A stretch of DNA of 47,257 nucleotides. It comes from a virus. Both the position numbers and the translations under genes were made by a program. Of this stretch, positions 33,982 to 38,074 are shown piece by piece. The notes under the pieces are model-generated. The model was given only the letters and a program-made list of their open reading frames with translations, searched no databases and was not told the origin of the DNA. The DNA is taken from positions 1-47,257 of the IMG/VR virus record IMGVR_UViG_3300008107_007977. The stretch is one strand, 5' to 3'. Numbering within the stretch: the stretch's first letter is position 1; each line of letters starts with the position of its first letter.

Positions 33982-33988
33982 TATTTAG
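33982..33988 (-). promoter_or_regulatory. CTAAATA late-promoter-like motif before the Hsp20 gene
   Basis: The minus strand reads CTAAATA and includes the TAA stop of the dUTPase gene. It is 60 nt upstream of the Hsp20 ATG. The rest of the gap has only a weak hairpin and no T tract. Confidence 0.4.
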
Positions 33989-36287: not shown

Positions 36288-37232
36288 TCACTTAAACTCG
36301 CAATCGACCATCAATTCAGTCAGGAAAGCCATTAGATTGATTTCCTGATCTGCTGCGAATGCAGCCTGATACTGATATTTACCGAGCAAGATCACCGCCA
36401 TTGGAATGGTGGCTGGATTGAGGATATCGTACAGTTTGTCATAAATATCGCGCATGATACGGTGCGTATCATTTTCGGCATTTTGAGCGACCCACTTACG
36501 AACGTTTCGGAAATCCTTGTCTTTCAGATAAGCAATCAATTCCGTAACCTTAACATCGCTGACCTGAGCCAGAATACCAACGTCGATATTCCCACCCACG
36601 CTGTAGCGTTGAAGTTCGTTTAGAACGCGACGATAATCTGGGAAGAATTTAGTGATGAGTTCGGCAACGACCTTCAAATCATACTGAACCTTTTCTTCTT
36701 TTAGAATCTGCTCAACACGCTTCATAAACGCAGAAGCCATCTTGGCTTTGTTACCGTTTTGAAGTTTGAAGTCAATTACCGCACAACGAGAATGTAGCGG
36801 TTGAATGATGCGATTCTTAAAGTTACACGTGAAGATAAACGAACAGTTTTTAGAAAACTCTTCGATCACACCACGAAACGCCGCTTGAGCCGCAGCAGTA
36901 AGATAGTCAGCCTCATCGATGATGATAACTTTACGACCAGTTCCAGTGAGCGAAACTGATGAGGCGAATCCTTTGACTTTGATACGCAAAGTATCAATGC
37001 CAGATTCGTCCGAACCGTTGATTATGATATAATCACAACCAATTTCCTCGCACATGGCGCGAGCAACAGTCGTCTTACCAACACCCGCCGATCCAGAAAG
37101 GATCATGTTCGGGATTTCTTTTCTTTCTACATATTCCTGAAATGTTTTCTTAAAGGTCTCAGGAAGAATACACTCAGCAATGGTCTTGGGTCGATACTTT
37201 TCGACCCACAACATTTCTACACTTTGCAACAT
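36288..37232 (-). CDS. 44: Clamp-loader large subunit (gp44)
   Basis: The 314-residue AAA+ protein reads MLQSVEMLWVEKYRPKTIAECILP, Walker A GSAGVGKTT, Walker B VIIIDEADYLT and an SFIFTCNFKNRIIQPLHSRC sensor/Arg-finger segment. It loads the 45 clamp at the primer terminus. AAGGGGA sits 8 nt before the ATG at 37232. Its neighbours (45, 62, regA) confirm the assignment. Confidence 0.95.
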   Translation of the reverse strand: MLQSVEMLWVEKYRPKTIAECILPETFKKTFQEYVERKEIPNMILSGSAGVGKTTVARAMCEEIGCDYIIINGSDESGIDTLRIKVKGFASSVSLTGTGRKVIIIDEADYLTAAAQAAFRGVIEEFSKNCSFIFTCNFKNRIIQPLHSRCAVIDFKLQNGNKAKMASAFMKRVEQILKEEKVQYDLKVVAELITKFFPDYRRVLNELQRYSVGGNIDVGILAQVSDVKVTELIAYLKDKDFRNVRKWVAQNAENDTHRIMRDIYDKLYDILNPATIPMAVILLGKYQYQAAFAADQEINLMAFLTELMVDCEFK

Positions 37233-37262: not shown

Positions 37263-37586
37263 TCACTCAGTCACTATTCTACGCCATTTACCGTTTGTAA
37301 GCAAGTACATTTCACCATCTGGTCCAACAGTCATACTTGCCTTCACATGCCGTTCAGTTCCAGAAACAAACTGCGACCCAAAACGGAATGTATTAGGTTC
37401 AATTGGACGCAGTTCGCCATACTCTGCACCAAGAGTTAGTTTACCATTGAAACCAGTGGATTCAATTTCCTTGATACACTTTGCTTGATCAGAATCTGGC
37501 AAAACAGCAGCGGCGGCAACTACGCCACCACCAGCAATACCACCAGCAAGACCAAGGTACTTGAAGAAATTACGTCTTGTTGCCAT
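37263..37586 (-). CDS. Putative Tat-exported protein
   Basis: ATG at 37586 has GGAG 8 nt upstream. The 107-residue protein begins MATRRNFFKYLGLAGG, a twin-arginine signal (T-R-R-x-F-x-K) followed by a hydrophobic Gly/Ala core (to about residue 28). The mature part (KCIKEIESTG, FRFGSQFVSGTERHVKASMTVGPDGEMYLL) looks like a small beta protein. The signal implies export of a folded protein by the host Tat system. The upstream membrane-protein gene overlaps by 17 nt. Confidence 0.7.
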   Translation of the reverse strand: MATRRNFFKYLGLAGGIAGGGVVAAAAVLPDSDQAKCIKEIESTGFNGKLTLGAEYGELRPIEPNTFRFGSQFVSGTERHVKASMTVGPDGEMYLLTNGKWRRIVTE

Positions 37587-37737
37587 ACTTGTGCTCCCAT
37601 AACGAATAAAGTGCAATACCAATCATTAACATGACTGGAGGTGCAGAATACGGAATCCAATGGAAGTATGTGTTTACAAGAGCGAAAATTGCTGTCAACA
37701 AAATTACGATTAGAATAGGTAATTCAGATTTATGCAT
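37570..37737 (-). CDS. Small membrane protein (55 residues) paired with the Tat-type protein
   Basis: ATG at 37737 to TAA at 37570-37572 encodes MHKSELPILIVILLTAIFAL and a second segment PPVMLMIGIALYSLW, predicting two membrane helices. GGAG lies 8 nt upstream. It overlaps the Tat-signal gene by 17 nt, so the two are probably co-translated and may act together in the membrane. Confidence 0.7.
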   Translation of the reverse strand: MHKSELPILIVILLTAIFALVNTYFHWIPYSAPPVMLMIGIALYSLWEHKYGNKT

Positions 37738-37757
37738 AATAAAACTCCAAAGAAAGA

Positions 37758-37833
37758 ATGGGGTGGAGAAGGTGAACTCTCACGATGAGCAGTCTGGCGG
37801 ATAGTACCGTCGGCAATGAACGCCGCACCCCAT
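37758..37833 (-). ncRNA. Candidate structured RNA element between dsbA-like and membrane-protein genes
   Basis: The 76-nt block is GC-rich in an AT-rich genome and is closed by a perfect 8-bp stem (ATGGGGTG at 37826-37833 with CACCCCAT at 37758-37765, minus strand). Inside are CGGC-GTTCATT-GCCG, CGG-TACTAT-CCG and either GTGA-GAGT-TCAC or CTCA-TCG-TGAG hairpins. A CTAAATA motif ends 6 nt before the stem, so a late transcript would begin at it. It is not a tRNA by arm sizes. It could be a regulatory 5' UTR or a small RNA. Confidence 0.5.
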
Positions 37834-37837
37834 AATC

Positions 37838-38074
37838 TTATTTAGCGACGTTTTCGTAAATTTCAACGAAATCGTTCTGCTCCGCCACTTCTTCTTCAAA
37901 GTTTCGTCGATGATAAACTTTCGCTAACTTTCGACTCAACTTCTTCGGAATTTCGTGCTCTTCCTGCATCTTCTGGAGGACCTCTTTGATGAGGTCTCGT
38001 TCGGCTTCAATGCGGGTAAGTGAGTTTGAAATCTCTTGGAGACAGCCAAGAACCTTTGCTTTATCTACTCTCAT
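37838..38074 (-). CDS. dsbA: DsbA-like double-stranded DNA-binding protein (T4 dsbA family)
   Basis: The 78-residue protein begins MRVDKAKVLGCLQEISN and ends KLSRKLAKVYHRRNFEEEVAEQNDFVEIYENV. The C-terminal segment resembles that of T4 DsbA (a 89-residue protein with an LYHKDN and EVVELYD pattern), which binds dsDNA and helps late transcription. Its ATG overlaps the clamp-gene stop by 1 nt; the clamp is itself the late-transcription coactivator, supporting the assignment. Confidence 0.62.
   Translation of the reverse strand: MRVDKAKVLGCLQEISNSLTRIEAERDLIKEVLQKMQEEHEIPKKLSRKLAKVYHRRNFEEEVAEQNDFVEIYENVAK
37839..37845 (-). promoter_or_regulatory. CTAAATA late-promoter-like motif before the structured element
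   Basis: The minus strand reads CTAAATA, including part of the TAA stop of the dsbA-like gene. With a 6-nt discriminator the start site falls at about 37831-37832, the foot of the stem. Confidence 0.45.

Follow-up and report, generated by a model that had tools for sequence, protein, structure and literature searches.

A conserved four-way-junction RNA between dsbA and gp44 in uncultured T4-type phages

What is the role of a structured RNA placed where a late transcript of a T4-type phage would be expected to begin, and to which of the surrounding genes does it belong? The question is raised by a 47,257-nucleotide stretch of viral DNA (IMG/VR record IMGVR_UViG_3300008107_007977; hereafter the window), in which the motif CTAAATA (37839-37845, minus strand) resembles a gp55-type late promoter and at the same time provides the last DsbA codons (GCT AAA TAA). 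On the same strand it is followed by a 5-nt spacer, AGATT (37838-37834), and by one arm of an exact 8-bp closing stem, AUGGGGUG / CACCCCAU (37833-37826 / 37765-37758). A sequence-only reading had located motif and stem correctly without giving the strand, and had proposed either a 5' untranslated region regulating the two small genes that follow or a stable small RNA. All genes of the region lie on the minus strand. Upstream is dsbA (37838..38074), encoding the late transcription dsDNA-binding protein Phage_DsbA (Pfam PF11126, E 5.6e-12). Downstream are open reading frames for a 55-aa small membrane protein (37570..37737) and a 106-aa protein with an RR motif in a Tat-like N terminus (37263..37583), neither of which has a Pfam or PHROG match, and then the gp44 clamp loader gene (36288..37232; PHROG 168, E 1.6e-124).

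Relatives were collected through tblastn-confirmed scans of IMG/VR with clamp, 55-aa membrane protein and DsbA queries, and through further IMG/VR scans with the loop pattern, with promoter plus P1 while ignoring the loop, and with a divergent DsbA. At least about 50 distinct copies of the RNA element were found among these relatives, and a covariance model, R1, was built from 35 of them. R1 matches all 77 newly fetched loci that had been selected by dsbA; for the divergent members L338-L342 its scores are 58-75 bits. Every relative is a metagenomic fragment, and the contexts are partly related by shared descent, so the counts given here are not fully independent. A search of the window and five larger contigs (up to 197 kb) with R1 found one copy of the element per genome and no second copy in any of them.

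The element comprises 74 nt on the minus strand (37832-37759) and scores 96 bits with R1. Its closing helix, P1 (7 bp), pairs UGGGGUG (37826..37832) with CACCCCA (37759..37765), and an eighth pair (A-U, 37833/37758) is present in this genome. P1 encloses three hairpins: P2 (37811..37825; 4 bp, CGGC at 37825-37822 with GCCG at 37814-37811), P3 (37782..37810; 5 bp, ACGGU at 37810-37806 with AUCGU at 37786-37782, and a 19-nt loop) and P4 (37766..37781; GAGAG with UUCUC, 4-5 bp and a 6-8-nt loop across the family), in which several members have a weak fifth pair. In the comparative analysis the helices P1-P4 abut with zero unpaired junction bases, forming a tight four-way junction. Two-sided compensatory changes were found in 15-16 pairs, with 97-98% of cells paired and none of 500 shuffles scoring as high; such changes in relatives had been named in the earlier reading as the test of its structure. 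A broader set of 35 sequences gave two-sided changes in 15 of 20 pairs (108 cells), among them 4/7 in P1, 4/4 in P2 and 5/5 in P3, and 98.1% of cells pairing, which 0 of 500 shuffles equalled; in this set sliding the partners by 1-3 columns lowered pairing to 41-62%. RNAalifold, run unaided, returned the same four helices.

The window alone proves little, and the decisive evidence is comparative. Single-sequence folding is moderately unusual (z -2.18, with 3 of 200 shuffles as good), and the window's minimum free energy structure (-26.0) is not the family fold (-21.2): it draws the P3/P4 region differently. It is because of this difference that the sequence-only reading could not draw the exact fold; its count of three internal hairpins is right. 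Two observations settle the strand as minus: R1 scores 96 bits there versus 19.8 bits on the plus strand, and G-U pairs are frequent (46 cells) when the minus strand is read, whereas the plus strand would have A-C mismatches at these positions. The element is a real structured RNA, present in single copy, and defines a new family. Rfam 15 returned 0 families at gathering score for the window and seven relatives, and the weak sub-threshold matches differ between members. At about 75 nt, with a closing stem and three hairpins, the fold recalls a tRNA cloverleaf, yet it lacks junction spacers as well as a D- or T-loop consensus, and where a tRNA has its 7-nt anticodon loop it carries a loop of 19 nt. 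A tRNA or tmRNA is rejected on the basis of that loop, 0 ARAGORN matches and a negative Rfam search, as the sequence-only reading had anticipated for tRNA. In their covariation, conserved loops and unassigned function, the sequences resemble the metagenome-derived candidate structured RNAs of Weinberg et al. 2010 (PMC2864571), which are included in Rfam.

While every stem varies, two loops are nearly constant: a 13-nt core, UCCGCCAGACUGC, within the P3 loop ACUAUCCGCCAGACUGCUC (37787..37805), as seen in two alignments of relatives, and UCACC within the P4 loop (UUCACC, 37776-37771, in the window). This invariance does not arise from having used the loop as a search pattern: loci found through dsbA or through promoter plus P1, where the loop was unused, keep it with rare single-base changes. 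Exceptions are UCUGCC in L211 and variation at the two bases preceding UCC. Near-invariance of this kind implies recognition by a protein, an RNA or a ligand. No complementary target of the loops above chance was found in the window, in two relatives (G001 and G002), in E. coli rRNA or in phage tRNA/tmRNA regions. The best shared antisense match falls within a lysin-like coding gene and was discarded, since G002 does not conserve it.

T4-type late promoters have the form TATAAATA and are recognised by the sigma factor gp55. The present motif is alike in that CTAAATA, CTATATA or TATAAATA stands right before the RNA, at a spacing that would put the start at P1; it is unlike in that the first base is usually C with one A fewer, as in CTAAATA, and in that some members lack it. 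Within the window CTAAATA occurs in the number expected by chance (6 found vs 6.5 expected), with all six on the gene-bearing strand. Across the window, G001 and G002 it occurs 48 times forward and twice in reverse, and 27 of the 48 (56%) are intergenic, compared with a strand ratio of 1.09:1 and 13% intergenic for permuted 7-mers in the same genomes. Of 39 distinct phage contexts, 36 have one of the three variants at a distance of 5-7 nt ahead of P1. Homologues of gp55 are encoded by G001 and G002 (E about 1e-19); none was found in the window, itself a genome fragment, and a search for gp33 with a KVP40 query gave no match. Taken together, motif and spacing indicate that in most contexts the foot of the RNA carries a gp55-type late promoter, from which we infer the transcription start.

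Usually CTAAATAA also serves as the final dsbA codons. In L007, L227 and L075 dsbA ends otherwise, and a promoter-like motif is still found before the RNA. In L188 and its kin the distance between dsbA and the RNA is about 0.7 kb, the end of dsbA has lost the motif, and TATAAATA precedes P1. The intervening segment (L188:3235-3938) is an insertion of about 0.7 kb that contains an ORF, with a new TATAAATA before the RNA; judging from these sequences, the promoter in this one lineage is rebuilt at the RNA after the insertion. L132, L080 and L340-L342 have no promoter at the foot; in L135 the motif is mutated to CTAGGTA, and in L339 it is located 18 nt from P1. The RNA is therefore not always dependent on the promoter, and the earlier proposal of a late start at the foot of the structure, which motif statistics, spacing and gp55 favour, does not extend to those few divergent members in which the motif is absent or 18 nt away. 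A second TATAAATA follows P1 by about 10-20 nt in L007, L085 and L135; the gene behind it is NUMOD3-bearing (homing-endonuclease-like) in L007 and L085. Elsewhere in the window, a short conserved hairpin, GGAAUGCCCAUUUGGGGUUCC, comes after a second late-promoter motif (33982-33988, minus strand); the hairpin also stands behind a late-promoter motif in G001 (4762) and G002 (122772). Structured starts of late transcripts may thus recur in these phages.

The position of the element is constant. dsbA lies upstream of the RNA in all 96 testable contexts, and gp44 lies downstream in 83, the remaining contexts ending at a contig edge first. What lies between RNA and gp44 varies: the membrane/Tat pair, NUMOD3-bearing genes, or other genes of no assigned function, with gp44 following the RNA directly in 17 contexts. 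It follows that the membrane/Tat pair is an inserted, replaceable cassette, and the same two observations leave the suggestion that the RNA regulates this pair without support. On the evidence of gene order, it is the dsbA-gp44 interval, rather than the pair, to which the RNA belongs. P1 is followed by a pyrimidine tail (UUCUUUCUU, 37750..37758) and, in the window, by the GGAG Shine-Dalgarno of the next gene (37745..37748). At least 10 of 12 positions are pyrimidines in 72% of 43 distinct tails, compared with 1.3% of genome 12-mers. No canonical or intrinsic terminator was detected after P1 on the minus strand, and an ORF begins 9-31 nt after the RNA in most contexts examined.

We favour, with moderate confidence, a structured leader of the late gp44 operon transcript that acts in cis and carries a candidate factor-binding site. 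Transcription directed by gp55 from CTAAATA would yield an RNA beginning at the foot of P1; the compact junction would seal the 5' end and display the P3 and P4 loops, which would probably be read by a phage protein, a host protein or the ribosome, and the stability or translation of the gp44-gp62-regA replication operon would thereby be set late in infection. Three points favour this reading: in most contexts examined an ORF stands close behind the RNA, the search after P1 showed no terminator, and the element keeps a fixed position in the operon. Both the action in cis and the binding partner are deduced rather than observed. The freely changing first downstream gene speaks against control of one specific gene. 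Counting against a leader are the invariant loops, which a plain 5' stabiliser would not need, as well as the promoters that are absent, mutated or displaced in some members and the second promoter in three others. There are precedents for structured leader RNAs of T4-type replication genes: the T4 gene 32 operator is a pseudoknot and that of gene 43 a single short hairpin, each at the ribosome-binding site of the gene controlled. The present RNA shares with these a conserved loop as a candidate site for a phage protein, and differs in its loop sequences and in its form, a four-way junction of 74 nt lying upstream of gp44. The gp43 hairpin operator has been described (PMC3014915).

A serious alternative, with a somewhat smaller chance of being correct, is a small RNA or protein-binding decoy acting in trans. 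A late promoter of its own would drive it, its transcript would be terminated or processed within the pyrimidine tail, and it would act via its loops. We retain it because promoter and RNA stay together even though the next gene changes. What appears to be a promoter of its own, a distinct late promoter for the following gene in L007, L085 and L135, the invariant loops and the U/C-rich tail are all consistent with such an RNA. However, P1 is followed by no detectable intrinsic terminator, the element never occurs outside the dsbA-gp44 interval, and the loops have no target above chance in the three phage genomes and the rRNA, tRNA and tmRNA sequences searched. For this small RNA and for the cis-acting leader alike, the 13-nt P3 core and the UCACC loop offer a direct handle on the partner, which would point either to late-transcription feedback on replisome genes or to a phage small RNA.

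It is unlikely that the RNA is a translation-initiation element, in which the fold and the 9-nt pyrimidine tail recruit the ribosome to a nearby AUG largely or wholly independently of a Shine-Dalgarno. This idea draws on the conserved tail and on five contexts (L021, L089, L083, L132 and L008; L021 and L089 share a family) in which genes of four unrelated families have their ATG 9-10 nt after P1, no Shine-Dalgarno and no alternative upstream start. Against it, most members have an ordinary GGAG or GAGG with the AUG 18-31 nt away, and by a crude test 24-34% of ORFs in these genomes taken from the first ATG are without even a weak Shine-Dalgarno. An apparent homologue of the L132 gene, in L066, has an ordinary Shine-Dalgarno. 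In its fullest form, which we also consider improbable, the invariant loops would contact the 30S subunit, the AUG 9-10 nt downstream would start without a Shine-Dalgarno, and any gene placed behind the RNA would be translated late. Four unrelated genes at equal distance make a testable case for structure-driven initiation.

A metabolite riboswitch, for which the compact junction and invariant loops might argue, is very improbable: the downstream genes share no pathway, only the dsbA-gp44 interval being constant, and no Rfam riboswitch matches. Finally, we give practically no credence to a chance fold or a coding sequence, the former suggested by a single-sequence z of only about -2 and refuted by the covariation (two-sided changes, 0/500 shuffles, slid controls near 40-60% paired), the latter opposed by element lengths of 66-75 nt among members, in steps not of three.

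As far as these collections show, the family appears confined to a single clade of uncultured T4-type phages. R1 gave no match (E <= 5) in L343-L349, loci whose DsbA is about 40% identical, nor in eight complete T4-like records of cultured or single-cell origin, and BLAST with three members gave nothing convincing in 50,697 phage records. Eighteen loci from a loop-pattern scan of bacterial genomes have neither the P1-P4 fold nor phage context and are read as chance matches, and a BLAST match in a Halomonas replicon falls inside an ABC-transporter-like gene, at 16.6 bits and without P1 or P4. The relatives are presumably mostly freshwater, going by a small number of recognisable lake data sets. 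In T4-type phages of freshwater bacteria, where to our knowledge few regulatory RNAs are known, the present work contributes an RNA family that is well supported and has a precisely defined transcription context. One T4-type relative of 173 kb carries a permuted tmRNA of betaproteobacterial type (L299:12763-13112, plus strand, identical with G002:32763-33112; Rfam beta_tmRNA 117.9 bits, tmRNA_permuted 142.4 bits; tag ANDDSFTPMALAA), which suggests a betaproteobacterial host. Many tRNAs are found elsewhere in the G002 genome.
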